Source: a virus
Virus record (IMG/VR): IMGVR_UViG_3300037264_008423
Coordinates: 174,437-238,436 of that record
Direction: 5' to 3' (one strand)
Length of the DNA: 64,000 nt
Below the pieces are notes generated by a model, which had not been told where the DNA came from, ran no database searches, and worked only from the letters and a program-made list of their open reading frames with translations. A program made the position numbers and the translations under genes. Each line of letters opens with the position of its first letter. Position 1 is the first letter of the stretch. Positions 9,261 to 37,741 of this stretch are shown here, in pieces.

Positions 9261-9334
9261 GCGGGTATGGTCTAACAGCAGAACGAGGCGGTGCCAGCGC
9301 TTAGGTGGGGGTGCGATTCCCCCTACCCGCTCCA
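9261..9334 (+). tRNA. tRNA-Gly (GCC)
   Basis: Acceptor GCGGGTA/TACCCGC, T73, encoded CCA. Anticodon stem AGGCG/CGCTT with loop GTGCCAG. D-loop contains AGCA; T-loop is TGCGATT, i.e. G at position 55 instead of T. Confidence 0.9.
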
Positions 9335-9344
9335 AATTTAGAAT

Positions 9345-9412
9345 GCTACCGGTCTCAACGGTGACGTGATTCAGACCACTGAGTCATCCGAGTTCTATCC
9401 TCGGCGGCTGCA
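9345..9412 (+). other. tRNA-like element, anticodon not assignable
   Basis: The T-arm CCGAG-TTCTATC-CTCGG is perfect and canonical, the D-arm is GTC...GAC with GG in the loop, and the acceptor GCTACCG/CGGCTGC has two mismatches. Where the anticodon arm should be, an 8-bp hairpin with a 4-nt loop forms instead. No CCA is encoded. It is probably a decayed or specialised tRNA. Confidence 0.4.
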
Positions 9413-9416
9413 CCGT

Positions 9417-9492
9417 GGGGGCGCATGTTCCGTAGCGGCGAGATTGCCTTGCAAGCAAACTGGGTCGGGTGCGACTCCCGTCACCTCCACCA
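9417..9492 (+). tRNA. tRNA-Ala (TGC)
   Basis: Acceptor GGGGGCG/CACCTCC with one mismatch, A73, encoded CCA. Anticodon loop CTTGCAA. D-loop contains TAGC; T-loop TGCGACT (G55). Confidence 0.8.
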
Positions 9493-9532
9493 AATCTTTT
9501 GACAGATTTTTTTGCGCGCGGTAAGGTCAAGT

Positions 9533-9721
9533 ATGAAACGTAAACACTTTCTATATGGCCTGCTCGCAGGCGCGGCGTCCACTTTAATGCTGGTCTTGTT
9601 CCTAGGCGCGGCAGATCCCACTTGGCTGGACATCGCAAGCAGCCTGAAGCGGATCGCCCATTCCCTGGAGATGATCTCCGGCCAGCGGCCCGGTTGGAAA
9701 ATTCCATACGCGGGTAAATGA
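9533..9721 (+). CDS. Small single-pass membrane protein
   Basis: 62 residues from ATG 9533. A basic start (MKRKHF) precedes a hydrophobic segment at about 8-28 (LLAGAASTLMLVLFLG); an amphipathic helix follows. It sits between two tRNA genes, with its stop six bases before tRNA-Ala(CGC). Function unknown; codon choice and membrane topology make it credible. Confidence 0.5.
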   Translation: MKRKHFLYGLLAGAASTLMLVLFLGAADPTWLDIASSLKRIAHSLEMISGQRPGWKIPYAGK

Positions 9722-9726
9722 CCTTC

Positions 9727-9800
9727 GGGGCCATAGCTCAATAGCAGAGCGGGTCGTTCGCAACGACTAGATCGGGGTGCGACTCCCCGTGGTTCCACCA
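9727..9800 (+). tRNA. tRNA-Ala (CGC)
   Basis: Acceptor GGGGCCA/TGGTTCC, A73, encoded CCA. Anticodon loop TTCGCAA. D-loop AATAGCA, T-loop TGCGACT: C19 and G55 in place of G19 and T55. Confidence 0.88.
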
Positions 9801-9806
9801 GATTTC

Positions 9807-9880
9807 GGCTGCGTAGCTCAATAGCAGAGCGTGCGCGTCACATGCACAAGGAACCCGTGCGATTCGGGCGTGGCCGACCA
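9807..9880 (+). tRNA. tRNA-Val (CAC)
   Basis: Acceptor arms CGGCTGC/GTGGCCG with G-U pairs, encoded CCA. Anticodon loop GTCACAT with one C-A mismatch in the stem. D-loop AATAGCA, T-loop TGCGATT. The exact acceptor register is uncertain by one base. Confidence 0.75.
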
Positions 9881-9896
9881 TTTTGTTCTAAAGCTT

Positions 9897-10340
9897 GTGA
9901 TCAATAGTAAACAAATCAAAGCTGAATTAGCCGTCATAAAGGTGCAGGAAGCGGCACTTAAAATGGGCCGGATATGCAGCAAACCTGTCATTGAAGGGAC
10001 GCGCTACGATTTGATAGTTGATGACGGTAAGCGTCTTATGCGCGTTCAAGTCAAATACTGTGGTGGTTATTACGATGGCGTTGTTGCGGTTAAACTTAAA
10101 AGTTATGGTAGGCAGGGGGCAGACCGTAGCTATTGCGCCAGTGAAATCGACGCCGTTATAGCCTATTCTGATGTGAATGACCGGCTTTATTGTCTGCCGA
10201 TTACTATGCTAGCGGACAAAACAACCATCCGCTTGCGCCATGCTCGTCCTAGAAACAATCAAAAGCAGCGGATTTGGCAGGCAGAAGACTTTATATGGGG
10301 CTGTAGCTCAAATAGGCAGAGCAGCACGATGGCATCGTGA
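9897..10340 (+). CDS. PD-(D/E)XK homing-type endonuclease
   Basis: About 147 residues from GTG 9897. It begins INSKQIKAELAVIKVQEAALKMG and has the nuclease core GTRYDLIVDDG...RVQVKY (D, then Q-V-K), as in the small PD-(D/E)XK family often tied to group I introns (PDDEXK_5 type). A paralogue lies at 11244-11666. A GTTCTA element precedes the start. The stop codon lies inside the downstream tRNA-Ala(GGC), overlapping it by 44 bp. This suggests a free-standing endonuclease that spreads within the tRNA cluster. Confidence 0.75.
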   Translation: MINSKQIKAELAVIKVQEAALKMGRICSKPVIEGTRYDLIVDDGKRLMRVQVKYCGGYYDGVVAVKLKSYGRQGADRSYCASEIDAVIAYSDVNDRLYCLPITMLADKTTIRLRHARPRNNQKQRIWQAEDFIWGCSSNRQSSTMAS

Positions 10341-10373
10341 AGGTTGAGGGTGCGATTCCCTTCGGTTCCACCA
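10297..10373 (+). tRNA. tRNA-Ala (GGC)
   Basis: Acceptor GGGGCTG/CGGTTCC, A73, CCA. Anticodon loop ATGGCAT. D-loop contains GGCA, T-loop TGCGATT. The 3' end of the preceding endonuclease gene overlaps its 5' half. Confidence 0.85.
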
Positions 10374-10598: not shown

Positions 10599-10674
10599 AC
10601 GGCAGTAGCTCAATTAGCAGAGCGGCGGTCTCCAAAACCGTTGGTTGGGGGTGCGAGTCCTCCCTGCCGTGCCA
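10599..10674 (+). tRNA. tRNA-Trp (CCA)
   Basis: Acceptor ACGGCAG/CTGCCGT perfect, G73, CCA. Anticodon loop CTCCAAA. D-loop AATTAGCA, T-loop TGCGAGT. Confidence 0.92.
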
Positions 10675-11032: not shown

Positions 11033-11120
11033 GGGCGTGTGACCGGAGCAGCAATCGGCACGGGCTGTAAACCCGTCGGCCTAAAAACCTACGCAGGTGC
11101 GAGTCCTGCCACGCCCCCCA
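11033..11120 (+). tRNA. tRNA-Tyr (GTA)
   Basis: Type II tRNA: acceptor GGGCGTG/CACGCCC, CCA, anticodon loop CTGTAAA and a long variable arm. D-loop contains AGCAGCA, T-loop TGCGAGT. Confidence 0.9.
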
Positions 11121-11126: not shown

Positions 11127-11214
11127 GCGCCGTAGCTCAGAGGCAGAGCAAACCCAAAGCCTGTAACCAGGTGAGCGGTGGGGATGAGAGGTTCGAGTCC
11201 AATCCGGCGCACCA
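11127..11214 (+). other. tRNA-like gene with disrupted anticodon arm
   Basis: Acceptor GCGCCG/CGGCGC, A73, CCA, and a normal D-arm with GG in the loop; T-loop TTCGAGT is canonical. The central part is about 10 nt too long and forms GCCTG-TAAC-CAGGT rather than a 7-nt anticodon loop. It could contain a small insertion, so no anticodon can be given. Confidence 0.45.
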
Positions 11215-11243
11215 TTCTTCCGTCTGGCGGTGTAATTAAAGGC

Positions 11244-11666
11244 ATGAACAGCAAGATTATCGGGGATATTTCCGAAGCATCCGTAATTGCGGCTCTTTTA
11301 AAATCGGGTTTGAACGTGTTAATGCCTTTCGGTGACAGGAACAGGTATGATATCGTGATTGAACATGACGGAAAATTTGAACGTGTGCAGATAAAAACAG
11401 GTAGGCAGCGCGGGAGAGTTATAGTCTATAATACACAGAGTTCAACTCGCGTTAACGGCAAACGGTGTGAATTAGGCTACCAAGGCCAAGTTGAAACTTT
11501 TGCGGTTTATCACCGTGAGCTGGATCGGGTCTATATGGTTCCTGTCGGTAAAGCAGCTACCGGTAAAGGGAGTTTGCGCTTGGGGCCTAAAGGCGGTTCT
11601 GGTGTAGGACCAAGATGCCTTTACGCTGATGACTATATTTTAAGGAGCGTTAGCTCAGTCCAGTAG
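11244..11666 (+). CDS. PD-(D/E)XK homing-type endonuclease (second copy)
   Basis: 140 residues from ATG 11244 (NSKIIGDISEASVIAALLKSG). The nuclease core is DRNRYDIVIEHDGKFERVQIKTG, with D, then Q-I-K. It is a paralogue of the protein at 9897-10340. The TAG stop lies in the D-arm of the downstream tRNA-Asp, an overlap of 23 bp, the same arrangement as its paralogue. It is likely a mobile nuclease targeting tRNA genes. Confidence 0.75.
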   Translation: MNSKIIGDISEASVIAALLKSGLNVLMPFGDRNRYDIVIEHDGKFERVQIKTGRQRGRVIVYNTQSSTRVNGKRCELGYQGQVETFAVYHRELDRVYMVPVGKAATGKGSLRLGPKGGSGVGPRCLYADDYILRSVSSVQ

Positions 11667-11720
11667 AGCAATCGACTGTCTATCGAAAGGTCAGGGGAGC
11701 AAAGCCCCTACGCTCCGCCA
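11644..11720 (+). tRNA. tRNA-Asp (GTC)
   Basis: Acceptor GGAGCGT/ACGCTCC perfect, G73, CCA. Anticodon loop CTGTCTA. T-loop AGCAAAG lacks both T54 and T55. Confidence 0.88.
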
Positions 11721-13812: not shown

Positions 13813-13889
13813 CAGGGTGTAGCTCAGCCTGGCGGAGCGCCTGGCCTGGGACCAGGAGGCCGTGGGATCGAAGCCCACCACCCTGACCA
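13813..13889 (+). tRNA. tRNA-Pro (TGG)
   Basis: Acceptor CAGGGTG/CACCCTG perfect, A73, CCA. Anticodon loop CCTGGGA, with C at position 33. D-loop contains GG; T-loop ATCGAAG keeps T55-C56, as expected for the GG partner. Confidence 0.88.
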
Positions 13890-13893: not shown

Positions 13894-13970
13894 CGGGCTG
13901 TAGCGTAGCCAAGTAACGCGCTTGCATGGGGTGCAAGAGATCGCCGGTGCGAATCCGGCCAGCCCGACCA
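13894..13970 (+). tRNA. tRNA-Pro (GGG)
   Basis: Acceptor CGGGCTG/CAGCCCG perfect, A73, CCA. Anticodon loop ATGGGGT. D-loop begins AGCC; T-loop TGCGAAT. Confidence 0.9.
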
Positions 13971-13976: not shown

Positions 13977-14051
13977 CAGCGCGTAGCCTAAAAGCCAGGC
14001 GCTTGCTTCGGGAGCAAGATCAAGCAGGAGCGTTACCTGTCGCGCTGACCA
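13977..14051 (+). tRNA. tRNA-Pro (CGG)
   Basis: Acceptor CAGCGCG/CGCGCTG perfect, A73, CCA. Anticodon loop TTCGGGA. D-loop AAAAGCC; T-loop AGCGTTA, with A54 and T58 swapped relative to the usual T54-A58. Confidence 0.88.
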
Positions 14052-14192: not shown

Positions 14193-14268
14193 TGGCATGT
14201 AGCTCAACTGGTAGAGCACTCGGCTGTTAACCGAGACGTTGTTGGATCGTCCCCAACCATGCCAGCCA
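14193..14268 (+). tRNA. tRNA-Asn (GTT)
   Basis: Acceptor TGGCATG/CATGCCA perfect, G73, CCA. Anticodon loop CTGTTAA. D-loop AACTGGTA (GG); T-loop ATCGTCC keeps T55-C56 but has A54/T58. Confidence 0.92.
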
Positions 14269-14274: not shown

Positions 14275-14350
14275 GCCCCCGTAGCTCAAAATACAGAGTG
14301 CGAGACTTCTAATCTCGGCGGTGCTGGTGAGAATCCAGCCGGGGGTGCCA
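14275..14350 (+). tRNA. tRNA-Arg (TCT)
   Basis: Acceptor GCCCCCG/CGGGGGT, G73, CCA. Anticodon loop CTTCTAA. T-loop TGAGAAT: G55 and A56. Confidence 0.9.
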
Positions 14351-14369: not shown

Positions 14370-14440
14370 TGGCTTGTTGACTCCGGTGTGTCCGACCGTC
14401 GCTAAAGCGGCAGAAGCGGGTTCGATTCCCGCCAAGTCCA
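14370..14440 (+). other. tRNA-like element, possible CTA anticodon
   Basis: Canonical T-arm GCGGG-TTCGATT-CCCGC and a D-arm with GG. The acceptor pairs TGGCTTG with CAAG-T-CCA around a bulged T. The anticodon loop reads either CGCTAAA (anticodon CTA, but G33) or a tetraloop TAAA. No CCA after the stem. It could be a pseudogene. Confidence 0.35.
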
Positions 14441-14557
14441 TCGCTTGCGGCACAAAGTGCGCAGTGCTGCCGTTTTCTGATTTAAGGCCGTGTCCGGCAA
14501 TTCGTGAGCCGGGCTAATCACTCGCGCTATCTTGGGCGGGGCGGCGCTTACTTTATA
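14441..14557 (+). other. Gap without gene
   Basis: A GC-rich 117-bp segment between tRNA-like genes. Short complementary blocks (GCCGTG...GGGCGGC) are present, but no tRNA or ORF can be supported. Confidence 0.2.
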
Positions 14558-14632
14558 GCTCGCGTGGCGCAATCACAGCGCGGGGACCTCCTAAGTCCCA
14601 GGTTGCGGGTGAGATTCCTGCCGCGAGCGCCA
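14558..14632 (+). tRNA. tRNA-Arg (CCT)
   Basis: Acceptor GCTCGCG/CGCGAGC perfect, G73, CCA. Anticodon loop CTCCTAA. D-loop AATCACA; T-loop TGAGATT (G55, A56). Confidence 0.92.
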
Positions 14633-15162: not shown

Positions 15163-15249
15163 GGCTCCGTAGCATTAAAGCAATGCCCCTGTCCTGAAAA
15201 CAGAGTGCGGGTAACACCGGTAGGGGTGCGAGTCCCCTCGGAGCCGTCA
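15163..15249 (+). tRNA. tRNA-Ser (TGA)
   Basis: Type II: acceptor GGCTCCG/CGGAGCC perfect, long variable arm, anticodon loop CCTGAAA (C33). D-loop contains AGCA; T-loop TGCGAGT. The 3' end reads GTCA, so CCA is not intact in the gene. Confidence 0.85.
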
Positions 15250-15267: not shown

Positions 15268-15594
15268 ATGACAGCAAGGCATGATCGAACAAGTGGGGAA
15301 GGATGGTTGGCCGAGCAGCAAGGCTCCCGGTTGGAAGCCGGAGGACTGGGTAACACCAGCGCGGGTGCGATCCCTGCACCATCCGCCAAAAAGATAGGGC
15401 CTCCCCGGCCTGGAACTAAATTTGTTTACCAAGGTATCGACTACCGTTTCCGGTCTTTCAGCGTTGAGTATCAGGTCTTAAAATTGGACCCGGACGAGCG
15501 CCTGATCCACCTAAGCCGCCGTAAGCGCATTACCTACGAGGCATGGCAGACCTTGATGACGCATTATAGGGCTGCGATTACTTTTGTTAGTTGA
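15268..15594 (+). CDS. Small protein whose frame spans a tRNA gene
   Basis: An in-frame ATG at 15268, preceded by CTTGTTCTATTCCAGTT, opens a 108-codon frame that runs through all of tRNA-Ser(GGA) and continues to 15594. The C-terminal 65 residues (KFVYQGIDYRFRSFSVEYQVLKLDPD...) look like a real small folded protein. Translation may instead begin after the tRNA at a non-ATG codon. Function unknown. Confidence 0.45.
   Translation: MTARHDRTSGEGWLAEQQGSRLEAGGLGNTSAGAIPAPSAKKIGPPRPGTKFVYQGIDYRFRSFSVEYQVLKLDPDERLIHLSRRKRITYEAWQTLMTHYRAAITFVS
15301..15388 (+). tRNA. tRNA-Ser (GGA)
   Basis: Type II: acceptor GGATGGT/ACCATCC perfect, G73, CCA, long variable arm. Anticodon loop TTGGAAG. D-loop AGCAGCAA; T-loop TGCGATC. 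Confidence 0.92.
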
Positions 15595-15600: not shown

Positions 15601-15673
15601 ACGGGCCGATTGGCTGTGGGTTATCTTCACTTGAAATGAAGCGATACGTGTTCAACTCACGTCCGTGGCTCCA
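15601..15673 (+). other. tRNA-like element (TGA loop), broken acceptor
   Basis: Perfect anticodon arm CTTCA-CTTGAAA-TGAAG and T-arm ACGTG-TTCAACT-CACGT, then CCGTGGC-T-CCA. Only ACGG of the upstream strand can pair with CCGT. The full complement GCCACGG lies just downstream at 15678. It is either a damaged tRNA or one needing rearrangement. Confidence 0.4.
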
Positions 15674-15863: not shown

Positions 15864-15951
15864 GGAAGGTGACCGGATACACGAGGACCCTGGCCCGAAC
15901 CCAGGCGCGGTGAAATACCCGTCGTGAGTGGAAATCTCACACCTTCCGCCA
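15864..15951 (+). tRNA. tRNA-Ser (CGA)
   Basis: Type II: acceptor GGAAGGT/ACCTTCC perfect, G73, CCA. Anticodon loop CCCGAAC (C33). T-loop TGGAAAT: G55 and G56. Confidence 0.9.
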
Positions 15952-15958: not shown

Positions 15959-16032
15959 GGCCCGTTAGCTCAAAAATAGAGCACCCGGCTGATAACCGGG
16001 AGACGCCGGAGTGTTACCGGCATGGGCTACCA
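15959..16032 (+). tRNA. tRNA-Ile (GAT)
   Basis: Acceptor GGCCCGT/ATGGGCT, A73, CCA. Anticodon arm CCCGG-CTGATAA-CCGGG. T-loop AGTGTTA, with A54/T58. Confidence 0.9.
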
Positions 16033-16347: not shown

Positions 16348-16422
16348 AGCGCATTAGACTAACAGCAAGGTCGCCGGTCTTTCTAACCGGAAGCGCGGGG
16401 GCAGCACCCGCATGCGCTGCCA
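16348..16422 (+). tRNA. tRNA-Glu (TTC)
   Basis: Acceptor AGCGCAT/ATGCGCT perfect, G73, CCA. Anticodon loop CTTTCTA. D-loop AACAGCAA, T-loop GGCAGCA. A GTTCTA element abuts its 5' end. Confidence 0.9.
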
Positions 16423-16425: not shown

Positions 16426-16501
16426 GCCCCCGTAGCTCAGTCTATAGAGCGTCCGCCTCCGAAGCGGAAGGCCGCTGGTGAGATTCCAGCCGGGGGTACC
16501 A
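16426..16501 (+). tRNA. tRNA-Arg (CCG)
   Basis: Acceptor GCCCCCG/CGGGGGT, A73, CCA. Anticodon arm TCCGC-CTCCGAA-GCGGA. T-loop TGAGATT, the same as tRNA-Arg(CCT). Confidence 0.92.
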
Positions 16502-16793: not shown

Positions 16794-16869
16794 GCTCCCA
16801 AGGTGTAAGAATCTGCACGCTTCCCTGCGAAGGAAGAGGCTCGTGGTGTGAATCCACGTGGGAGCGCCA
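16794..16869 (+). tRNA. tRNA-Arg (GCG)
   Basis: Acceptor GCTCCCA/TGGGAGC perfect, G73, CCA. Anticodon arm CTTCC-CTGCGAA-GGAAG. T-loop TGTGAAT (G55, T56). GCG is unusual, as bacteria normally read this box with ACG. Confidence 0.85.
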
Positions 16870-16875: not shown

Positions 16876-17004
16876 GGGGACGTAGCTTAATCTGGTAGAG
16901 CGCCAGGGTGAAAACCTGGAGGTGCGGGTTCAAATCCCGTTGTAATTACCCTCCTACAATCCTTGCCTGAAAGGGCCGAACTATGAGGATTATCGTCCCC
17001 GCCA
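16876..17004 (+). tRNA. tRNA-Phe (GAA) with 53-nt insertion
   Basis: GGGGACG, a D-arm with TGG, anticodon arm CCAGG-GTGAAAA-CCTGG and T-arm GCGGG-TTCAAAT-CCCGT are canonical. The 3' acceptor strand CGTCCCC with G73 and CCA comes only after a 53-nt insertion (16941-16993). In the insertion AATCCT pairs with AGGATT. This would be an intron-like insertion between positions 65 and 66. Confidence 0.75.
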
Positions 17005-17861: not shown

Positions 17862-17938
17862 GGAAGCATAGCTCAATCACGAAGAGCGGGAGTCCTACCC
17901 ACTCAAGGTTGCTGGTGCGAGTCCGGCTGCTTCCACCA
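17862..17938 (+). tRNA. tRNA-Val (TAC)
   Basis: Acceptor GGAAGCA/TGCTTCC perfect, A73, CCA. Anticodon loop CCTACCC (C33). D-loop contains CACGA, T-loop TGCGAGT. Confidence 0.88.
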
Positions 17939-19161: not shown

Positions 19162-19237
19162 GCCTCGCACGCACAGACAGCGGTGCGCCGGTTTCGTAAA
19201 CCGGAGATGGCCGGTGCGATTCCGGCGCGAGGCTCCA
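19162..19237 (+). tRNA. tRNA-Thr (CGT)
   Basis: Acceptor GCCTCGC/GCGAGGC perfect, T73, CCA. Anticodon loop TTCGTAA. D-loop AGACAGCG, T-loop TGCGATT. Confidence 0.93.
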
Positions 19238-19248: not shown

Positions 19249-19325
19249 GTGCGTGTAGCATAATCAGTTAGTGCCCTTGATTGTGAATCAAGACTGTGCC
19301 GGTGCAACTCCGGTCACGCACCCCA
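19249..19325 (+). tRNA. tRNA-His (GTG)
   Basis: Acceptor GTGCGTG/CACGCAC perfect, C73, CCA. The base before the stem is G, giving the G-1:C73 identity pair. Anticodon loop TTGTGAA. T-loop TGCAACT. The minus-strand HNH gene overlaps its 3' half. Confidence 0.93.
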
Positions 19326-19851
19326 AAGTGACAGCGTAACCAGCGTGTTTTACGACTTTTAGGCACATAGCTACAAACTCATTGTAGCTAAAGTCAGCTT
19401 TGGCTTTGTTCACGGGTTTGCAGGTCAGTCCCAGGTTCAGAAGGGAGTTATCCCCTCCCTTCGATACGGGTATGGTATGGTCAAAAGCATAATCATCCGA
19501 AAGCAGGTCTATCGGAGTGCCCGTGAGGTAACACACTGGATCAGACTTGAGCTTATTCCAAAGCATTTTAGCTGTGAACCGGCTTGACAGCTTGCTGCGC
19601 CGCCCCTTGACTGCTCTGTCGAAATTCTTTTTTCTTTCTCTGAACCGGCTGAGCTTCACGGAAAATCTTTTCAGTTTACGGAACTTTTTCACGCGTATAA
19701 TGGTCTGGCTTTTGACTTGGTTGGACAAGTGATACCGGACTGTGCTCGGTGGTAATTTGGTTTCACGGCTGATTCTTTTCACGCCCCAGTCAGGGTGTTC
19801 GCGTTTGACTGTTTCTATTAATTTCTTATTTAATACACGGGTCGTATCCAT
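19288..19851 (-). CDS. HNH homing-type endonuclease
   Basis: 187 residues from ATG 19851. The N-terminal helix-turn-helix-like part (IETVKREHPDWGVKRISRETKLPPSTVRYHL) is followed by a basic linker and an HNH nuclease core: CYLTG...FDHTIPVSKGGDNSLLNLGLTC (about 115-150). It lies antisense to the tRNA cluster and its 3' end overlaps tRNA-His by 38 bp. Likely a free-standing mobile endonuclease. Confidence 0.85.
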   Translation of the reverse strand: MDTTRVLNKKLIETVKREHPDWGVKRISRETKLPPSTVRYHLSNQVKSQTIIRVKKFRKLKRFSVKLSRFRERKKNFDRAVKGRRSKLSSRFTAKMLWNKLKSDPVCYLTGTPIDLLSDDYAFDHTIPVSKGGDNSLLNLGLTCKPVNKAKADFSYNEFVAMCLKVVKHAGYAVTLGCVTGVAPAQS

Positions 19852-19883
19852 ACCGTAAATACAGTTACGACCCGTAAGAACAT

Positions 19884-19959
19884 GTTCGGCGACCGAGCTA
19901 GTGACCGGAATGGTCTGCAAAACCAATGTTGTAGAGTGCGATCCTCTAGCCGAACTCCA
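19884..19959 (+). tRNA. tRNA-Cys (GCA)
   Basis: Acceptor GTTCGGC/GCCGAAC perfect, T73, CCA. Anticodon loop CTGCAAA. D-arm CCG...CGG with AGC in the loop; T-loop TGCGATC. Confidence 0.92.
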
Positions 19960-19970
19960 GTATTTAAAGC

Positions 19971-20258
19971 ATGCGGGAAAGCATGGCATCTTTGGCGTCT
20001 CAAATTGTCGCCTACCTTTTGGAGTATGAAGTGGTTCGAGTCTGCGCGTCTTGTGAACAGGAAATGGGGCGGCGCGTCAAGGTCGAGCCAGGTCAGCACC
20101 GCAGCCACGGCTATTGCAGGCGACATATGCTGGAATACTACCGGCAGGCAGATATTGATCCTGGTCCCGTAGCGGCTAAGGACGACCGGATGTTCTGCCC
20201 GGATCTGCGCGAGCACCCGGAAATACCCACCGTCCCGATGGAAAATAACGAGCTATGA
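19971..20258 (+). CDS. Small zinc-finger-like protein
   Basis: 95 residues (or 91 from the second ATG). The central part CASCEQEMGRRVKVEPGQ...GYCRRH has C-x2-C and C-x2-H ligands, typical of a single treble-clef or zinc finger. Its stop overlaps the next start (ATGA). Function unknown. Confidence 0.65.
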   Translation: MRESMASLASQIVAYLLEYEVVRVCASCEQEMGRRVKVEPGQHRSHGYCRRHMLEYYRQADIDPGPVAAKDDRMFCPDLREHPEIPTVPMENNEL

Positions 20259-26237: not shown

Positions 26238-26241
26238 CTCA

Positions 26242-27362: not shown

Positions 27363-27447
27363 GCCAGCGTGGTTAAGGTGGAATGAGCAGACCCCTGCGA
27401 CTTAAAATCGCGGAGCCTTGGGGGTGCGAGTCCCCCCGCTGGCACCA
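27363..27447 (+). tRNA. tRNA-Leu (TAA)
   Basis: Acceptor GCCAGCG/CGCTGGC perfect, A73, CCA. Anticodon arm TGCGA-CTTAAAA-TCGCG. D-loop contains GAGCA, T-loop TGCGAGT. The next tRNA begins on the following base. Confidence 0.93.
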
Positions 27448-27531
27448 CGGCGCGTGGTTTACCAGGAACAGCAGACTGGCGAGTTTCAAAAACTCTGAGC
27501 CTTGAGAGTGCAATTCTCTCTGCGCCGACCA
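27448..27531 (+). tRNA. tRNA-Leu (CAA)
   Basis: Acceptor CGGCGCG/TGCGCCG, A73, CCA. Anticodon arm GAGT-TTCAAAA-ACTC. D-loop AACAGCA, T-loop TGCAATT. No spacer from the preceding tRNA. Confidence 0.9.
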
Positions 27532-28481: not shown

Positions 28482-28557
28482 CGCGGGGTGGCGCAGATGG
28501 TAGCGCGCTAGGCTCATAACCTAGAGGTCGCCGGTTCAAGTCCGGCCCCTGCAACCA
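28482..28557 (+). tRNA. Initiator tRNA-fMet (CAT)
   Basis: Very close to bacterial initiator tRNA: CGCGGGG at the 5' end with the diagnostic C1-A72 mismatch, D-loop AGATGGTA, anticodon loop CTCATAA, canonical T-loop TTCAAGT, AACCA end. The three G-C pairs of the anticodon stem are replaced by CTAGG/CCTAG. Confidence 0.95.
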
Positions 28558-28774: not shown

Positions 28775-29205
28775 GGGGGCGTATTAGACTCGATCTAGTG
28801 CCCTGAACGCTTAGCGACAGCCGAGGATGGTGGTTGGACCTCGATAATACCTCCACCGAAAACATCAAATGCCGAAAGCACTGATGATACGGCTCTCTTA
28901 GCCCAAGCCGAAGCGATCTTCGCCGACCCGGATGAAGTCCTCGCCAAGACCGGCTATGCAGAGCCAGCTTTGGCCTAGCGCCAAACCGTCCACCCTCTGA
29001 CGCCTGCTACGGGGTGTGGGCGTAACCAGCAGGCAAAAACGCGGTCTCTTCCCGTGAACCGCGCCGTAGATCACGTGAGTGTGGCCGGGGTGATGTCTTG
29101 CCGTTCTCTTACCCGGTCATTCTAAATAAAGAAGCGGAGATGCCTGTGGATGCTCGCGCAAGGACTATTAGAGACAGGAGGGGCAGTGCCTCCTCGCCTC
29201 CACCA
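28775..29205 (+). ncRNA. ssrA: Phage tmRNA with 35-codon tag
   Basis: Transfer-messenger RNA for rescuing stalled ribosomes. The tRNA-like ends pair: GGGGGCG (28775-28781) with CGCCTCC (29195-29201), then A and CCA. The 3' part has a T-arm (GGAGG/CCTCC). After ACATCAAAT a resume codon GCC (28871) opens a 35-codon tag, AESTDDTALL...TGYAEPALA, ending at TAG 28976-28978; the ALA end fits protease-targeting tags. Pseudoknot-like G/C-rich stems follow. About 431 nt, longer than the E. coli molecule. No smpB gene is seen in this window. Confidence 0.88.
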
Positions 29206-29239: not shown

Positions 29240-29854
29240 ATGAACGTGGCTCTGAACTGTAAACAGTGTGGTGATTCTTTCGAGATCCGAAAGGCCGAGC
29301 ATAACCGGCAGCTTAAAAAAGGCAGGCAGCACTTTTTCTGTAGCCTTTCCTGTTGCGCCGCTTATGGCAACACAGCAAGGATCGCACCAGTCATAAAGAA
29401 AAACTGTAAGCATTGCGGTGGAGAGTTTGAGACAAAACAGGATCGGCATGAAGCTGACTTTTGCGGTAAACGATGCGCTTCGCTGGGAAGCGTAACTGCG
29501 TATCGTCGAGCCAGAGCGAGGCTGTCGGGACAGGCGCATGCCAATAATTTTAGCAACGCTAAGGCGCTGCTTGGTAGAGAAAATAAGAAATATAGGCTGC
29601 TGATTCCTTTGCTGACCGAAAGACAGATTAGGTATGAGTTTGAAAAAAGGATCGATAAGTTTGTATTTGACTTGGCGCTCGAAGACCAGAGGGTTTTGAT
29701 CGAGTTTGACGGTCCAGAGCACCGCACGCCTAAAGGGACCGAGCGAGATGCGGTCAGGGACAGGTCCGCCGAGCTGCTGGGTTGGAAGGTTTTAAGGATA
29801 CCGGTGAAAACCGGTCAGATTATTCCAGCTTCCATGCTGGAAGCTGTTCTTTGA
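29240..29854 (+). CDS. Vsr/DUF559-like endonuclease with zinc fingers
   Basis: 204 residues. Two N-terminal treble-clef zinc units (CKQCGDSF...FFCSLSC and CKHCGGEF...FCGKRC). The C-terminal nuclease (IRYEFEKRIDKFVFDLALEDQRVLIEFDGPEHR...RDRSAELLGWKVLRIPV) has the PD-(D/E)XK fold of Vsr-like endonucleases. It lies 34 bp after the tmRNA, consistent with a homing nuclease inserted next to a conserved RNA gene. Preceded by GTTTACAGTTCTG. Confidence 0.85.
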   Translation: MNVALNCKQCGDSFEIRKAEHNRQLKKGRQHFFCSLSCCAAYGNTARIAPVIKKNCKHCGGEFETKQDRHEADFCGKRCASLGSVTAYRRARARLSGQAHANNFSNAKALLGRENKKYRLLIPLLTERQIRYEFEKRIDKFVFDLALEDQRVLIEFDGPEHRTPKGTERDAVRDRSAELLGWKVLRIPVKTGQIIPASMLEAVL

Positions 29855-30106: not shown

Positions 30107-30268
30107 AGCGCGCGAACCGCGCGGGTCGAATGTGATTGGTTACCATCAAACCGTTGGTTATTGGTGCAAATCCAATCCGGTCCGCAAGGGCCGGTAGCTC
30201 AATCAGCAGAGCAGCGGTTCCCGTAAGGGATTTCCGATCCTGAGCCTTACCCGTGCGGTTCGCGCGCT
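30107..30268 (+). ncRNA. YrlA-type Y RNA candidate (tRNA-like, permuted)
   Basis: The ends form an uninterrupted 20-bp helix, 30107-30126 with 30249-30268 (one G-U). Inside is a tRNA-like domain in permuted order: T-arm ATTGG-TGCAAAT-CCAAT, acceptor strand CCGGTCC, loop GCAA, acceptor strand GGGCCGG (7 pairs), then TA and D-arm GCTC-AATCAGCA-GAGC. The long helix stands where an anticodon stem would be. Bacterial YrlA RNAs combine a Ro-binding end helix with a tRNA-like module, and the Ro gene begins 0.8 kb downstream. A GGTCGAATG follows the 5' helix strand and resembles Ro-contact sequence; that resemblance is from memory. Confidence 0.7.
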
Positions 30269-30992: not shown

Positions 30993-31015
30993 AGGCCGCA
31001 CGCAGCGGCCTTTTT
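30993..31015 (+). terminator. Intrinsic terminator
   Basis: AGGCCGC and GCGGCCT form a 7-bp stem with loop ACGCA, followed by TTTTT. It separates the upstream gene from the Ro gene. Confidence 0.85.
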
Positions 31016-31058
31016 GCTGCCACATGGTTGGGGGCAGACTGCGCTGAAAGGAAAAACC

Positions 31059-32708
31059 ATGAGTGTTTACCAGACGGTTAGCCGTAAGGCAACCCCGCAA
31101 AATCAACCCATTCCCGGTTCCAAGCAGGTGAAGAACTCCGCAGGTGGTTACACCTGGCTCCTGGATGACTGGAGCCGCCTGCGCCGATTCCTGGTGCTTG
31201 GCTCCCAGGGTGGAACGTATTACGTCAAGGAACAGGATCTCGTCAAGGCCAACGCGGAAGTGGTTGACCGGTGCTTGGGTCTTGACGCGGCCAGGACGAT
31301 TCAGCAAATCGTGGAAGTTTCGGATAAGGGCCTGGCCTATCGCAACGAGGCGGCGCTCTTCGCGCTGGCCAAGGCCGCCGCCGACCAGAATGAAAAGTCA
31401 CGAGCGTTGGCTCTTGACGCGCTGCCGCAAGTGGCGCGCACCGGCACCCACCTGTTTCACTGGGCAAACTATGTTCAGTCGATGCGGGGCTGGGGCCGCG
31501 CCCTGAGAAAGGCGGTCGGGCACTGGTATAACCAGTGGACGGCGGACGAGCTGGCCTACCAGGTCGTCAAGTATCAGCAGCGCGATGGCTGGTCCCACCG
31601 GGACCTGCTCCGCCTGGCGCACCCGGTCGCCGAGACCGAGGGGCACGACGCGGTATTCCGCTGGGTCCTGGGCGGCCAGGAGGCCCTGGCGGCGCGCACG
31701 GTGAAGCGCCAGCGTCCCGGTCAAGAGGTAAAGCCTGAATACACCTACCCGGATCTGGCTTTCCACCTGCCGCAGTTCATCGAGATCTTTGAAAAGGCCA
31801 AGACGGCGGACGCCAAGACGCTTGTCAAGCTGATCACCGAGCGCAGCCTGCCCCGCGAGGCGATCCCCACGGAGCAGTTGAACTGCCCGGAGGTTTGGGA
31901 GGCGCTCTTAGTCAACATGCCAGCCACGGCCCTGGTCCGCAACCTGGGCAAGATGACCAGCATCGGGCTGGTCAAGACGCTTTCCAAGGCGTCCAAGACC
32001 ATTGTGGACAAGCTGGGTAACGCCGCGTGGCTCAAGAAGTCCCGCGTCCACCCGATGCAGTTTTTGATCGCGGCCAAGGTGTATGCCCAGGGTCACGGGG
32101 AAAAGGGCAAGCTCGCCTGGACGCCGGATCAGTCGGTGGTCTCGGCCCTGGAGCGCGCCTTCTACGCCTCTTTTGGCAACGTCAAGCCCATCGGCAACAA
32201 CGTGCTGATCTCGCTGGATATCTCCAGTTCGATGGGACATACGATGGAAGGCACCTGCTTGTCCTGCTACGAGGCGGAAGCGGCCCTGGCGCTAATCCAT
32301 GTCAGCATTGAGGACACCGTGGGGGTCATGGGTTTCGCCACAAACTACCGGGAAATCAAGATCCGCAAGGGCATGAGCCTGGTGGACGCGATGCAGCACG
32401 TCGCCGGTCAGGGCTTCGGCGGCACGGACTGCTCGCTGCCGTTTCGCTGGGCGGGAACGGAGCGGATGGATGTGAACTCATTTATCACGGTCACGGACAA
32501 TGAATCATGGCACGGCGGTGTTCACCCGTCCCAGGCGCTCAACGCCTATCGCCAGGCTTCCGGCAATCAGGCCCGGTCGGTCGTCATGGGCATGACGAGC
32601 ACGGGCTTTACTATCGCGGACCCCAATGACGCGGGTTCGCTCGACGTGGTGGGCTTTGACGCCTCCGCGCCTGCGCTCATCTCGGATTTCTGCCGGGGTG
32701 ATGTCTAA
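31059..32708 (+). CDS. rsr: Ro60/Rsr (TROVE-domain) protein
   Basis: 549 residues; ATG follows GAAAGGAAAAACC, a good ribosome site. Residues ~20-345 are the TROVE HEAT-repeat ring (GGYTWLLDDWSRLRRFLVLGS, ...RNEAALFALAKAAAD..., HPMQFLIAAKVYAQGHGEKG). The C-terminal von Willebrand A domain has the MIDAS motif DISSSMG near 388 and FGGTDCSLP near 452. Bacterial Ro binds Y RNAs and helps exonucleases in RNA decay and rRNA maturation. The nearby Y-RNA candidates support that role here. Ro proteins are rare in phages. Confidence 0.95.
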   Translation: MSVYQTVSRKATPQNQPIPGSKQVKNSAGGYTWLLDDWSRLRRFLVLGSQGGTYYVKEQDLVKANAEVVDRCLGLDAARTIQQIVEVSDKGLAYRNEAALFALAKAAADQNEKSRALALDALPQVARTGTHLFHWANYVQSMRGWGRALRKAVGHWYNQWTADELAYQVVKYQQRDGWSHRDLLRLAHPVAETEGHDAVFRWVLGGQEALAARTVKRQRPGQEVKPEYTYPDLAFHLPQFIEIFEKAKTADAKTLVKLITERSLPREAIPTEQLNCPEVWEALLVNMPATALVRNLGKMTSIGLVKTLSKASKTIVDKLGNAAWLKKSRVHPMQFLIAAKVYAQGHGEKGKLAWTPDQSVVSALERAFYASFGNVKPIGNNVLISLDISSSMGHTMEGTCLSCYEAEAALALIHVSIEDTVGVMGFATNYREIKIRKGMSLVDAMQHVAGQGFGGTDCSLPFRWAGTERMDVNSFITVTDNESWHGGVHPSQALNAYRQASGNQARSVVMGMTSTGFTIADPNDAGSLDVVGFDASAPALISDFCRGDV

Positions 32709-33297: not shown

Positions 33298-33486
33298 ATG
33301 GCCTACCTCAATAAGATTGTAAACGGACACCGGGTTCGAGTGAAGTTGCTCAGTCCCGCCGCCTTGCGGAAGCTGAAAAAAGAAGAACTGGAGTTGGTGC
33401 GAGAGATGTCCGGTCTCGCCGATGAATTGATCGCCGAAAGGCGCACGGAAAGCAAACCGGTCAAGCGTGCCGGGACTGTCCGCTAA
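33298..33486 (+). CDS. Small basic helical protein
   Basis: 62 residues: MAYLNKIVNGHRVRVKLLSP, then a charged helix (ALRKLKKEELELVREMSGLADELI). No motif. Its stop lies just before a 3' tRNA fragment. Plausible but unproven. Confidence 0.5.
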   Translation: MAYLNKIVNGHRVRVKLLSPAALRKLKKEELELVREMSGLADELIAERRTESKPVKRAGTVR

Positions 33487-33537
33487 ACAGCTCGCCCCTT
33501 CACTGCGGGTGTGGTGCAAGTCCACTGCTTTCCGCCA
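33482..33537 (+). pseudogene. 3' part of a tRNA
   Basis: T-arm TGTGG-TGCAAGT-CCACT, strand GCTTTCC, G and CCA are good, and CCCC...CGGG may be the anticodon stem. No matching 5' acceptor strand adjoins it; GGAAA at 33276, before the small ORF, could pair. Truncated, or interrupted by the ORF. Confidence 0.4.
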
Positions 33538-33543: not shown

Positions 33544-33635
33544 GGCCCCTTGGTGTAACAGTAACACGACCGTCTTATACACGGGAAGTCCTAGATGTGG
33601 GCACGATGCTGGTGCAAATCCGGCAGGGGCTACCA
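33544..33635 (+). tRNA. tRNA with anticodon TAT and long variable arm
   Basis: Acceptor GGCCCCT/AGGGGCT, A73, CCA. Anticodon arm (A)CCGT-CTTATAC-ACGG gives TAT (Ile AUA), yet the variable region is about 20 nt with a stem, as in Leu/Ser/Tyr tRNAs. T-loop TGCAAAT. Amino-acid identity is uncertain. Confidence 0.75.
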
Positions 33636-35660: not shown

Positions 35661-35993
35661 ATGTATGGTTTTTCCGATTCCTGGCACACGCTGGTCATTG
35701 ACTTTGGCGCGGAAGAGCGCCTTCAGCGCGCCGCGCAGGAGCAGACGATTGGCACGGAGATCGTAACGCTTACCGTTGACGGTTTCAGACAGCGTTACAT
35801 CGAAGAGAGCGACCTTCATTTTTTAGAAAACGATCCCCGCTGGCAGAGACTCAAAGCGGTGTTTAGGCCGGGGGACGTGCTAGTCAAGTTTAATAGCAGC
35901 GAGGCGAGCTGGGCAGCGTTAGCCGGACGCGCTGGATACGCGGTTGTGCGCGACGGCCAAGCGGTGGATAGTTACTTGACTCGGTTATCTTAG
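35661..35993 (+). CDS. Unknown small protein ending at tRNA-Leu
   Basis: 110 residues. RPGDVLVKFNSSEASWAALAGRAGYAVVRDG near the end resembles small phage proteins with a barrel fold. Its TAG stop shares one base with the start of tRNA-Leu(GAG). Function unknown. Confidence 0.65.
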   Translation: MYGFSDSWHTLVIDFGAEERLQRAAQEQTIGTEIVTLTVDGFRQRYIEESDLHFLENDPRWQRLKAVFRPGDVLVKFNSSEASWAALAGRAGYAVVRDGQAVDSYLTRLS

Positions 35994-36076
35994 GGCGCGT
36001 GGTTTACCCGGAACAGCAGACGGGCCTGGTCGAGAACCAGTGAGCCTTGGAAGTGCAATTCTTCTCGCGCCCACCA
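35993..36076 (+). tRNA. tRNA-Leu (GAG)
   Basis: Acceptor GGGCGCG/CGCGCCC perfect, A73, CCA. Anticodon arm CTGG-TCGAGAA-CCAG (C33). D-loop AACAGCA, T-loop TGCAATT. Confidence 0.9.
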
Positions 36077-36083: not shown

Positions 36084-36159
36084 GCTGACGTAACTCAATT
36101 GGCAGAGTAACGGACTTTTAATCCGTAAGTTACGGGATCGTGGCCCGTCGTCAGCACCA
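36084..36159 (+). tRNA. tRNA-Lys (TTT)
   Basis: Acceptor GCTGACG/CGTCAGC perfect, A73, CCA. Anticodon loop CTTTTAA. D-loop AATTGGCA (GG) with T-loop ATCGTGG (T55-C56), again the canonical pair with A54/T58. Confidence 0.93.
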
Positions 36160-36166
36160 ATTTTAC

Positions 36167-36240
36167 AGCCCAGTAGCACAATGCGGTGCGGCTCCCTTTG
36201 AAGGAGACGGATGGGGGTGCGAATCCCTCCTGGGCTACCA
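36167..36240 (+). tRNA. tRNA-Gln (TTG)
   Basis: Acceptor AGCCCAG/CTGGGCT perfect, A73, CCA. Anticodon arm CTCC-CTTTGAA-GGAG. D-loop AATGCG, T-loop TGCGAAT. Confidence 0.92.
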
Positions 36241-36261
36241 TTTTTAAGCTAAAAATAAAAA

Positions 36262-36304
36262 GTTTACTTTTTATTTTGACAGCCAGGTCACTTTCTTTTA
36301 AGTT
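36262..36304 (+). promoter_or_regulatory. Promoter GTTTAC-N8-TTGACA-N17-TAAGTT
   Basis: TTGACA at 36276-36281 and TAAGTT at 36299-36304 with a 17-bp spacer; GTTTAC 14 nt upstream of the -35. Drives the gene at 36335. Confidence 0.8.
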
Positions 36305-36334
36305 CTGGCTCAACGAACAGAAAGACAAAAACCA

Positions 36335-37099
36335 GTGAAACCAAAACTACATGAACTCCTGGCGGCGGAGACGAACCTGGACAACCAGGCGAATAAGTGC
36401 CGCACTGACTTGGTGGACACCCTGACCAAGAAACGGCACCACTTTGAGGAAAAAAAGACGGTGTTTATCCCGAATACGGAAGGCGCGACGCCGATGGTGG
36501 AAGCGCAGTCCGACATCGTGACCACCGTGCGCAAGGAGCTGGACTGGATCAAGGGCCATCTCACCAAAGCTTTGGACGCCGCGTTCCAGATTGCGGAGAC
36601 CAACATGGTCGCGCGCGGCGACGTGGTGATCGATGATGACGCGGCGACGGTTCTGCTCACGGGGATTCCAGCCACGGCGCTCCTGGAACTGGAAAAGCGC
36701 GCCGTTGAGATCAAGCAGCTAGTCGAGGCGATCCCCACGCTGGACCCCGCCAAAGGTTTCCAGTCCGACGAACAGCGGGGCGATGGATTCTTCAAGGCCA
36801 GGGACGTGGCGAAAACGCGCACCAAGAAAGAGAAGAAAGTCATCGTGCTCCACGCGCCGACCAAAGAGCATCCGGCCCAGGTGCAGTTGATCGATGTGGA
36901 TGTGCCGGTGGGCGCTTTGCAGGAGCAGGAATGGTCCAGCCTGATCACCACCGCCCAAAAAGCGGACATGCTGGATCGGGCAGAGAAAGTGGTTCGCGCG
37001 CTCAAGAAAGCGCGCTCGCGTGCCAATGACACGGAAGTGGACACGACCAAGAAGCTGGGCAACCGGCTGCTGAGCTACGTGTTTGATGGAAAAGTGTAA
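36335..37099 (+). CDS. Conserved phage/bacterial protein (DUF7873-like)
   Basis: 254 residues from GTG 36335. Helical N-terminus (LHELLAAETNLDNQANK), then a segment IPTLDPAKGFQSDEQRGDGFF, and VQLIDVDVPVGALQEQEW...MLDRAEKVVRALKKAR. This order recalls a family found in actinobacteria and phages, known to me only as unknown function. It has its own strong promoter, so it is probably abundant or early. Confidence 0.7.
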   Translation: MKPKLHELLAAETNLDNQANKCRTDLVDTLTKKRHHFEEKKTVFIPNTEGATPMVEAQSDIVTTVRKELDWIKGHLTKALDAAFQIAETNMVARGDVVIDDDAATVLLTGIPATALLELEKRAVEIKQLVEAIPTLDPAKGFQSDEQRGDGFFKARDVAKTRTKKEKKVIVLHAPTKEHPAQVQLIDVDVPVGALQEQEWSSLITTAQKADMLDRAEKVVRALKKARSRANDTEVDTTKKLGNRLLSYVFDGKV

Positions 37100-37223
37100 A
37101 CAATTTCGGGTGTGGAAAGCGGCCTCCGGGTTGCTTTCCTAGCTCAAAGCTCAAGGTGAAGCTCAGATTCAGGGTTACAGGTCAGGCTATCACCCGAAGG
37201 CTCAAAACCCTAAGCGAAAGGAA
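37100..37223 (+). other. Structured non-coding segment
   Basis: TTCGGGTG pairs with CACCCGAA (about 37107 and 37192), GGAAAGC with GCTTTCC, and GGGTT with AACCC. No ORF. It is either a 3' UTR or the first part of a larger RNA that includes the permuted element downstream. Confidence 0.35.
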
Positions 37224-37352
37224 CGTTGAAAGGTAGCGCCACTCCAACTGAGGTCGGGGGTTCAAATCCCTCCTCCGCCCCCAAAATCATATGGCGGAGT
37301 AGCTCAGCGGTAGAGCATCAGGATCAGGCTAACGGCGCTAAGCGTTTTGACG
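37224..37352 (+). ncRNA. Second permuted tRNA / Y-RNA-like element
   Basis: Order along the strand: CTGA, T-arm GGGGG-TTCAAAT-CCCTC, acceptor strand CTCCGCC, C, CCA, a 9-nt linker, acceptor strand GGCGGAG, TA, D-arm GCTC-AGCGGTA-GAGC, TCAG. The acceptor strands pair perfectly (37273-37279 with 37293-37299). CTGA/TCAG form the anticodon-stem position, extended by TAGCGCC/GGCGCTA and GTTGAAA/TTTTGAC around internal loops. It is either a permuted tRNA gene needing splicing or a second YrlA-like RNA. Confidence 0.65.
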
Positions 37353-37386
37353 AACAGAGCTAAAAAGCTTCGCTTAATAAAACCAA

Positions 37387-37423
37387 GGGCCACTCGCGTG
37401 GAAGCGGGTGGCCCCCATTATTT
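37387..37423 (+). terminator. Intrinsic terminator-like hairpin
   Basis: GGGCCAC and GTGGCCC with further CGC/GCG pairing form a strong stem, followed by CCATTATTTC. Confidence 0.55.
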
Positions 37424-37432
37424 CAAAGTTCT

Positions 37433-37675
37433 ATGATCGATCAGTCTCCCCCTACGGAAGCCATTGAGGCGTTTCACCGGCATTTGGATCGCTGTGAGCA
37501 GTGCCGGGACCGGCCCTTTGAATTATGCGCGGTGGGCCAGCCTCTTTTGCTGGCAGCCGCCAACCAGGACCAACTGGGGCCGCAGCCGCCGCCTAATCCC
37601 TATAATCACGAAGAGTGCTTGCTCGCGGCAGTGGGCTGGCTCATACTCAACCGTAAACGATTTATTGCCGGGTAG
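37433..37675 (+). CDS. Small zinc-finger-like phage protein
   Basis: 80 residues. FHRHLDRCEQCRDRPFELCAVGQPLL (about 14-39) has the H-x3-C-x2-C layout of small anti-sigma-type zinc proteins, and the C-terminal helix has HEECLLAAVGWLIL. AAAGTTCT abuts the ATG. The TAG stop is supplied by positions 8-10 of tRNA-Gln(CTG). Confidence 0.65.
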   Translation: MIDQSPPTEAIEAFHRHLDRCEQCRDRPFELCAVGQPLLLAAANQDQLGPQPPPNPYNHEECLLAAVGWLILNRKRFIAG

Positions 37676-37741
37676 TTCAAGTAGTGGAACGCGGGTCTCT
37701 GAAACCCGATGGTGCTGGTGCGAGTCCAGCCCCGGCAACCA
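37666..37741 (+). tRNA. tRNA-Gln (CTG)
   Basis: Acceptor TGCCGGG/CCCGGCA perfect, A73, CCA. Anticodon arm CGGGT-CTCTGAA-ACCCG. T-loop TGCGAGT; the D-loop AAGTAGT lacks both GG and GC. Confidence 0.92.

Follow-up and report, generated by a model that had tools for sequence, protein, structure and literature searches.

A phage tRNA set in which A18 and G55 stand in place of G18 and U55 at the elbow

The tRNA genes and their neighbours

The window, i.e. the whole stretch of 64,000 nucleotides analysed here, comes from an IMG/VR record of a 238 kb phage (labelled G000) that carries at least 39 (about 39) tRNA genes covering all 20 amino acids and encodes, beyond these, a tmRNA, Y RNA-like elements and Ro60. 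The 39 tRNA genes of the window lie between positions 9261 and 37741 and, like the other features described below, are all on the + strand. ARAGORN lists 23 of them, and 24 matches in the phage genome reach the gathering score of the Rfam model RF00005; tRNAs below that score were recognised by cloverleaf and gene order only. Since RF00005 does not require G18–U55, the altered RNAs remain members of the tRNA family. The 3′ CCA is encoded in most genes, and identity bases are present in the sequence (G3–U70 in tRNA-Ala, G-1 and C73 in tRNA-His). Amber recoding of the window was ruled out, as TAG terminates 13 of its 41 long reading frames.

As originally predicted, most of these tRNAs have G55 (34 of the 39), and 31 of the 34 combine A18–G55 with a Watson–Crick 19–56 pair (sequences are given below as D-loop/T-loop). 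A18/G55 is found in tRNA-Val(CAC) (9806–9880), Tyr(GTA) (11033–11120), Pro(GGG) (13894–13970), Ser(TGA) (15163–15249), Ser(GGA) (15301–15388), Thr(CGT) (19162–19237), Cys(GCA) (19884–19959), Leu(CAG) (26066–26149), Leu(TAG) (26157–26240), Leu(TAA) (27363–27447), Leu(CAA) (27448–27531), Ser(GCT) (33447–33537), Ile(TAT) (33544–33635) and Leu(GAG) (35993–36076), as well as in tRNA-Gly(GCC) (9261–9334; AACAGC/TGCGATT), Ala(TGC) (9417–9492; D-arm weak), Ala(CGC) (9727–9800; AATAGCA/TGCGACT; G3–U70 kept) and Trp(CCA) (10599–10674; AATTAGCA/TGCGAGT), whose collinear orthologue in the related phage G008 reads AATTGGCA/ATCGTGG. In tRNA-Ala(GGC) (10297–10373; AAATAGGCA/TGCGATT), which has G55, A18 is possible and so is GG. 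The 54–58 combination is A54–A58 in tRNA-Asp(GTC) (11644–11720; AGTCCAGTA/AGCAAAG), A54–U58 in Pro(CGG) (13977–14051) and Ile(GAT) (15959–16032; AAAAATA/AGTGTTA; A19–U56), and G54–G58 in Glu(TTC) (16348–16422; AACAGCAA/GGCAGCA) and Thr(TGT) (21062–21133), all of them A18/G55.

Several tRNAs had been set apart as exceptions. This does not hold for tRNA-His(GTG) (19249–19325; AATCAGTTA/TGCAACT; with G-1 and C73), Asp(GTC) or Gln(CTG) (37666–37741; AAGTAGTG/TGCGAGT), all of which are A18–G55 with a Watson–Crick 19–56 pair. The same is true of four of the arginine tRNAs, namely Arg(TCT) (14275–14350; AAAATACA/TGAGAAT; U19–A56), Arg(CCG) (16426–16501; AGTCTATA/TGAGATT; U19–A56), Arg(GCG) (16794–16869; AAGAATCT/TGTGAAT; A19–U56) and Arg(TCG) (24386–24460; AACCACAA/TGGGAGT; C19–G56). 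Arg(CCT) (14558–14632; G55, A56), whose 19–56 combination is not Watson–Crick, is a true exception. The other true exceptions among the 34 are tRNA-Val(TAC) (17862–17938; C18) and Gln(TTG) (36167–36240; U18, 6-nt loop). In tRNA-Ser(CGA) (15864–15951; D-arm weak), the T-loop TGGAAAT provides G55 G56 and the D-loop A18 C19. The canonical G18/U55 elbow is kept, as anticipated, by tRNA-fMet(CAT) (28482–28557; C1–A72 mismatch), Phe(GAA) (16876–17004; an insert of ~53 nt between the T-stem and the acceptor 3′ strand), Pro(TGG) (13813–13889; A54), Asn(GTT) (14193–14268; A54–U58) and Lys(TTT) (36084–36159; A54–U58).

The tmRNA (28775–29205; RF00023, 55.2 bits for a gathering score of 47) is altered as well: the GG of the Rfam consensus is AG and the T-loop is GGCAGTG, giving A18/G55. 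This elbow recurs in the tmRNA of the related phage G013, and GG/UU is found in those of G003, G006, G008 and the isolated phage LinStu. Matches to the YrlA model RF02553 score 36.6, 33.5 and 27.8 bits, under its gathering score of 69, and the elements are therefore called YrlA-like only. Most Y RNA-like elements keep the canonical elbow, including the one at 37233–37344, whose predicted GG/TTC elbow was confirmed; the element at 30152–30216 (AATCAGCA/TGCAAAT) is A18/G55. Both are below the gathering score. The Ro60 gene (31014–32708) matches the TROVE and vWA_Ro60 domains (E 2.5e-47 and 2.2e-53, respectively). Ro60 is present in G000, G006, G007, G013 and G022 and absent from G005, G012 and G015, phages with few or no tRNAs; a search of IMG/VR for Ro60 relatives by peptide patterns gave no match.

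Register and covariation of the elbow

The contact between G18 and pseudouridine-55, among the best known in RNA biology, holds the tRNA of nearly every cell in shape. Psi55 has been described as universally conserved (PMC4810234). Reading the D-loop AATAGCA as A14 A15 U16 A18 G19 C20 A21, a register fixed by canonical seven-base D-loops such as AACGGTA, the elbow change is G18·U55 to A18·G55. In the seven-base D-loops (n = 59), where the alignment is unambiguous, A stands directly 5′ of the base-56 partner in 40 of 42 G55 tRNAs, and G does so in all 16 U55 tRNAs. The base 3′ of this partner, position 20, is unrelated to base 55 (23 U, 14 C, 4 A and 1 G with G55; 7 C, 4 U, 3 A and 2 G with U55). 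Mutual information, computed on the 275 tRNAs with a unique anchor, the anchor being the 19–56 pair (as in the gene-by-gene survey), amounts to 0.749 bit for 18–55 (shuffles, at most 0.038) and to 0.017 bit, i.e. noise, for 20–55. We regard the A18–G55 covariation and its register as almost certain.

Bases 19 and 56 form a Watson–Crick pair in 57 of the 59 seven-base loops (as G–C, C–G or A–U, with U–A in longer loops), and this pair covaries in both elbow states (G–C, U–A, C–G, A–U). The topology is canonical throughout, with 18 opposite 55 and 19 opposite 56. The 54–58 pair is also swapped in a coordinated manner: the survey counted U–A 279 times, A–U 35, A–A 24, C–A 17 and G–G 14, and purine 54 goes with purine 60.

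That the D- and T-loops switch together, as the original prediction had it, is thus upheld, and more strongly genome-wide than it could then be shown. The contact it proposed, in which antiparallel G18–C56 and C19–G55 pairs supplant the canonical ones, is next to untenable: GC…GC motifs are indeed frequent, and C or U follows the base-56 partner in 28 of the 34 G55 tRNAs, but this pyrimidine is equally frequent in U55 tRNAs (p = 0.76), the C thought to stand where G19 should be is position 20, and the model fails for tRNA-Arg(TCT), Arg(CCG), Arg(TCG) and Ser(CGA), where A18–G55 holds. Base 20 does not covary with base 55; the loops had been read in the wrong register, which the prediction had itself named as a ground for rejecting it. 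Arginine tRNAs aligned as U18–A56 and C18–G56 appear to favour that pairing, an appearance that the corrected register removes.

Related phages, controls and occurrences elsewhere

In five capsid-related phages that were not selected by elbow type (142 tRNAs scored), A18/G55 occurs in 93 tRNAs, G18/U55 in 38 and mixed combinations in 3 (A/U 1, G/G 2; Fisher 8e-30). Comparison of G000 with G008 is particularly telling on how the sets changed: 33 of 35 shared anticodons are collinear (shuffle maximum, 15), and base 55 differs in 30 of these 33 genes, G55 being found in no tRNA of G008, which indicates that the set was altered gene by gene. Duplication and re-specification of a single founder tRNA is ruled out, as collinear isoacceptors carry opposite elbow states. 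For G007, the best sequence match has the same anticodon for 9–11 of 26–38 genes (chance, ~1).

Control tRNAs from three isolated phages and from Verrucomicrobia MAG contigs are G18/U55 in 85 of 85 cases. The three phages, LinStu, Milchi and Cece, have large tRNA arrays that are canonical throughout, which rules out that every large phage tRNA set behaves in this way and shows that a phage tRNA kit does not require the elbow change. Verrucomicrobia MAGs contain clustered A18/G55 arrays that adjoin Ro60, RlaP or YrlA-like genes, their remaining tRNAs being canonical. A host-like elbow as the source of the change is unsupported, since tRNAs elsewhere in three of these MAGs are canonical, although the true host may differ.

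Possible causes of the elbow change

The account we favour takes the A18/G55 RNAs to be working elongator tRNAs that would belong to a backup translation kit (tRNAs, tmRNA, Ro60 and Y RNAs). G55-N56-R57 would form a G-turn where the U-turn would be, A18 would stack between 57 and 58 and stand in for the final A of a GNRA loop, and the G55–A18 pair would be non-Watson–Crick, probably sheared. That these tRNAs function in translation is quite probable judging from their sequences: the coverage of all 20 amino acids, the identity bases of tRNA-Ala and tRNA-His, the mostly encoded CCA and a SAR11 tRNA-Phe, the sole one found in four draft genomes, which has A18/G55, were all counted in its favour.

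As to cause, the phage tRNAs would lack the T54–psi55 mark because they have lost U55 (in the window) or U54 (often in the relatives G007 and G008). Host enzymes that read the T-loop, whether putative tRNA-cleaving nucleases of defence or competition, TruB or TrmA, would not act on the phage set as they do on host tRNAs; a known CDI toxin cleaves the T-loop between T and psi (PMC9086364). No TruB was found in the phages examined, and neither TruB, RtcB nor RlaP in the genome of the window's phage. The near-uniform, gene-by-gene change to A18/G55 suggests selection against the usual elbow mark, and such selection against the canonical T-loop is a plausible cause, which we put forward tentatively. 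The escape would be incomplete, since fMet, Phe, Pro(TGG), Asn and Lys tRNAs are canonical at 18–55. On the account as a whole, structure, function and cause together, we are evenly divided. The UU T-loop retained in 15 of 43 G007 tRNAs, the mostly canonical Y RNA-like elements and the canonical LinStu, Milchi and Cece arrays were counted against it. A bolder version, in which A18–G55 would be a natural genome-wide alternative elbow code, arisen repeatedly, both in phages and in backup arrays that are mobile or chromosomal, and hiding the whole set from enzymes reading T54–psi55 with canonical Y RNAs as decoys, we hold to be unlikely.

Compensatory drift in the absence of an adversary has a real, if minority, chance of being the explanation: two steps would lead to A18–G55, an elbow nearly equivalent to the canonical one, and weakly selected accessory sets would slide between states. 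Single A18/G55 tRNAs do recur in unrelated cells (tRNA-Phe in SAR11 and Chloroflexi, tRNA-Ala and tRNA-Thr in Micrarchaeota) and within mixed phage sets, many unusual 54–58 combinations occur side by side, and sets with the same elbow state do not form a single clade on the capsid tree. However, drift acting gene by gene should more often give mixtures such as those of G024–G027, whereas the switch has reached 34 of 39 tRNAs in G000 and all 40 scored in G013, G55 is absent from the collinear G008 set, and the other large phage sets stay put (the 85 controls). Reverse self/non-self marking, whereby the phage or its kit would recognise host tRNAs by the canonical elbow and destroy them or take them over, its own set being exempt, is improbable: the phage was not found to encode an enzyme of this kind, and several canonical phage tRNAs would be hit as well, even though related phages avoid the canonical T-loop in two ways (G55 in G000, G003, G006 and G013; A54 in much of G007) and a host-like elbow persists in some Y RNA-like elements. 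That the altered RNAs are decoys or other non-translational factors, like staphylococcal cell-wall tRNA-Gly, is very improbable given the full isoacceptor set, the conserved order, stems and identity bases and the SAR11 tRNA-Phe, although the elbow change may weaken ribosomal interactions and Y RNA-like elements with tRNA-like domains share the array.

Comparison with known systems

The window's set shares with the canonical G18–psi55/G19–C56 elbow (PMC4810234) its loops, its topology with 18 opposite 55, the Watson–Crick 19–56 pair and G53–C61, but has A–G at 18–55 almost throughout, which makes psi55 impossible, and often A–U, A–A, G–G or C–A at 54–58. A54/A58 with purine 60 is known from eukaryotes, where tRNA-Ala and initiator tRNA have unusual tertiary pairs that were reported absent from bacteria and archaea (PMC7566577). 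The combination recurs in the phage set, where the change affects many isoacceptors; A18 goes unmentioned in the main text of that paper. Large phage tRNA sets have been proposed to replace damaged host tRNAs (PMC10264068, PMC11555353), and phage tRNAs to evade host tRNases via anticodon-loop changes (PMC10264068), whereas the window's change is in the elbow; the main texts of both papers are without T-loop, D-loop or elbow. Phages, plasmids and chromosomes are likewise known to carry additional tRNA genes in clustered sets, described as tRNA array units or as stress-induced trn operons, and the parts of those reports consulted do not note the A18/G55 dialect (PMC12803027; PMC10272220). In the rsr-yrlBA-rtcBA RNA repair operon (PMC7790460), Ro60 and YrlA-like RNAs likewise have tRNA-related genes as neighbours, but in the window's phage, where RtcB and RlaP were not found, these are linked to a whole tRNA set.

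A defined change of partners across near-whole sets offers a clean comparative test of the G18–psi55 contact and of the roles of the T54 and psi55 modifications. For phage–host conflict, it points to selection acting on the tRNA elbow, beyond the anticodon loop, and A18 with G55 provides a simple sequence signature by which such sets, and the proteins driving them, can be found. No description of A18/G55 or of a 'purine trap' was found in the literature searched, outside which most subscription papers lie. The Steinberg group's 'purine trap' reportedly arose from suppressor tRNAs with randomised D- and T-loops selected in vivo, in which alternative 18–55 and 54–58 combinations can work. Those were single laboratory tRNAs, whereas the set described here is natural and genome-wide.

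The tRNA stretch and its neighbours

The window, which is the final 64 kb of a virus record of 238,436 bases, carries 39 tRNA genes at 9261-37741, all on the plus strand, whose anticodons cover all 20 amino acids. ARAGORN recognized 23 tRNAs in the window and 24 matches reached the Rfam cut-off genome-wide; the remaining tRNAs in the window were identified by our own cloverleaf search and by their position in the gene order. The same stretch contains a tmRNA (28775-29205), a Ro60 gene (31014-32708) and YrlA-like elements scoring under the family cut-off (at 37233, 30152 and 14392). The virus is a tailed phage, as judged from its major capsid protein gene (61465-62919), whose product is far from that of every isolated phage (<60% identity).

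Four small nuclease genes, two PDDEXK_5, one HNH and one DUF559, lie among the tRNA genes (9831-10340, 11178-11666, 19288-19989 and 29240-29854) and are possibly homing-type elements. The tRNA-Phe gene (16876-17004) contains about 53 additional bases between the T-stem and the matching acceptor strand CGTCCCC-GCCA, which look like an insert or intron between the T-arm and the acceptor stem. In three Leu tRNAs (26066-26149, 27448-27531 and 35993-36076) the loop GAAYAGCAGA is flanked by an alternative, covarying D-stem (CTCG/CGAG, CCAG/CTGG, CCCG/CGGG). A tRNA-like element at 14370-14443 has a canonical elbow and the anticodon loop CGCTAAA (CTA, amber); CTA tRNAs are also encoded by the relatives G006, G007 and G010, and of the window's 41 long reading frames, 13 nevertheless end in TAG. 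Another tRNA-like element (15613-15670, under the Rfam cut-off), with a short or absent D-arm and the canonical T-loop TTCAACT, resembles in sequence a YrlA-like element of the related phage G008 (L068:340-469).

Bases 18 and 55 change together

Base 55 is a G in 34 of the 39 tRNAs. The five that retain U55-C56 (fMet, Phe, Pro-TGG, Asn and Lys-TTT) all retain GG in the D-loop, in agreement with the original prediction that the two loops change state together. The pairing proposed there, G18-C56/C19-G55 in place of G18-psi55/G19-C56, depends on the D-loop register. Seven-base D-loops leave no choice of numbering (14, 15, 16, 18, 19, 20 and 21), and the canonical loops of relatives (AACGGTA, AATGGCA) set the register, so that the window's AATAGCA reads A18, G19, C20. 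Among 59 seven-base D-loops from twelve genomes, the 18/55 combination is A/G in 40, G/U in 16 and other in 3, and 19-56 is Watson-Crick in 57, while base 20 is distributed roughly equally with G55 and with U55. When the comparison was extended to 275 tRNAs, using an alignment anchored on base 56 only, the mutual information between 18 and 55 was 0.749 bit (shuffles <=0.038), as against 0.017 bit between 20 and 55; purine or pyrimidine at base 20 was unrelated to base 55 (p = 0.76). The "C19" of the proposed C19-G55 pair is thus base 20, and the pair is not sustained.

Since some of these genomes had been selected by the G55 pattern, the count was repeated on the window's phage and four relatives selected by capsid protein alone. 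It gave 93 A18/G55, 38 G18/U55, 1 A/U, 2 G/G and 8 others (p = 8e-30; p-values overstate the evidence here because related sequences are not independent). The records are metagenomic fragments, in which short or odd tRNAs may have been overlooked or mis-parsed. In the controls (three isolated phages and Verrucomicrobia MAG contigs), 85 of 85 tRNAs were G18/U55. With the register corrected, the tRNAs earlier listed as exceptions (His, Asp, Gln-CTG and Arg-TCT, -CCG, -GCG and -TCG) prove to be A18/G55; the fit is incomplete in 3 of the 34 G55 tRNAs (Val-TAC, Gln-TTG and Arg-CCT), and the D-arms of Leu, Ser-CGA and Ala-TGC are ambiguous. Positions 19-56 are occupied by U-A, A-U or C-G in Arg, Ile-GAT and Ser-CGA genes of the window, showing that the tertiary Watson-Crick pair persists at its canonical position.

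Gene-by-gene change in related phages

Five capsid relatives of the window's phage (G000) bear arrays: G003, G006 and G013, which are A18/G55, and G007 and its near-copy G008, which are G18/U55 and have A54-U55 in 25 of 43 tRNAs. G000 and G008 have 35 anticodons in common, 33 of them collinear (shuffles <=15); in 30 of the 33 collinear genes the two phages disagree at base 55, indicating that the sets were altered gene by gene. For instance, the Trp elbow is AATTAGCA/TGCGAGT in G000 and AATTGGCA/ATCGTGG in G008. G006 clusters with G007/G008 on the capsid tree (99/99), separate from G000 and G003; barring an exchange of arrays, the state of the whole set has thus probably shifted at least twice.

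The 18-55 rule is repeated outside tRNAs: the tmRNA has A18 and G55 in G000 and G013, and GG and UU in G003, G006, G008 and the isolated phage LinStu. The Y-RNA-like element at 30152 has the switched elbow; those at 37233, in G006, in G008 and at locus L127 are canonical. Despite the kinship among the sequences, the switches of individual genes and those of the tmRNA are events separate from one another.

A18/G55 elbows elsewhere

When GTDB genomes were scanned by pattern, the matches listed included A18/G55 in tRNA-Phe of many SAR11 genomes, Chloroflexi Phe, Micrarchaeota Ala and Thr, and a few others. Since the A18/G55 gene is the sole tRNA-Phe found by pattern in four SAR11 drafts (records among L076-L154), tRNAs with this elbow very probably work in translation. 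IMG/VR contains mixed sets and additional whole A18/G55 sets (G022, G023). In three Verrucomicrobia MAGs, A18/G55 tRNAs form a clustered array (L089, L103, L127; contigs G018:C35, G019:C128, G019:C385, G020:C64), while the remaining tRNAs examined there are canonical. The arrays are adjoined by TROVE/Ro60 (G020:C64, G019:C385), RlaP (G018:C35, G020:C64) or a YrlA-like RNA (L127). Gly(TCC)-like tRNAs with AGTAGTA/TGCGATT-type loops, seen in L083 (Streptomyces, four tandem copies), L090, L100, L119, L144 and L147, could be non-standard tRNA-Gly; their T-stem was mostly unfolded in our finder.

Four of five array-bearing phages (the window's phage and capsid relatives) have Ro60, which is absent from all three capsid relatives with few or no tRNAs. 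It also accompanies canonical arrays, LinStu's among them, so Ro60 tracks arrays, not the A18/G55 elbow.

Proposed structure and cause

In the canonical elbow, residue 18 is stacked between 57 and 58 and contacts psi55, and 19-56 caps the corner (PMC4810234). We infer that A18 would occupy the usual place of residue 18 and contact G55, with G55-N56-R57 turning as in a GNRA loop of which A18 would be the fourth base. With G at 55, psi55 is impossible. The T-loop varies elsewhere too: in the compared tRNAs the 54-58 pair is U-A in 279, A-U in 35, A-A in 24, C-A in 17 and G-G in 14, and a purine at 54 is accompanied by a purine at 60. For eukaryotic tRNA-Ala, Westhof and colleagues described A54/A58 combined with a purine at 60; according to their report, bacteria and archaea lack such pairs (PMC7566577).

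The T54-U55 dinucleotide was lost by two routes in two lineages, through G55 or through A54, which suggests that selection acts against the canonical T-loop and not for one new fold; the main rival account is drift between two equivalent elbows. Selection of this kind can be set beside known systems: a toxin cleaves the T-loop between T and psi (PMC9086364), a role against tRNases has been proposed for phage tRNA sets (PMC10264068, PMC7824862), and Ro60/Y RNA genes are found alongside tRNA repair (PMC7790460).
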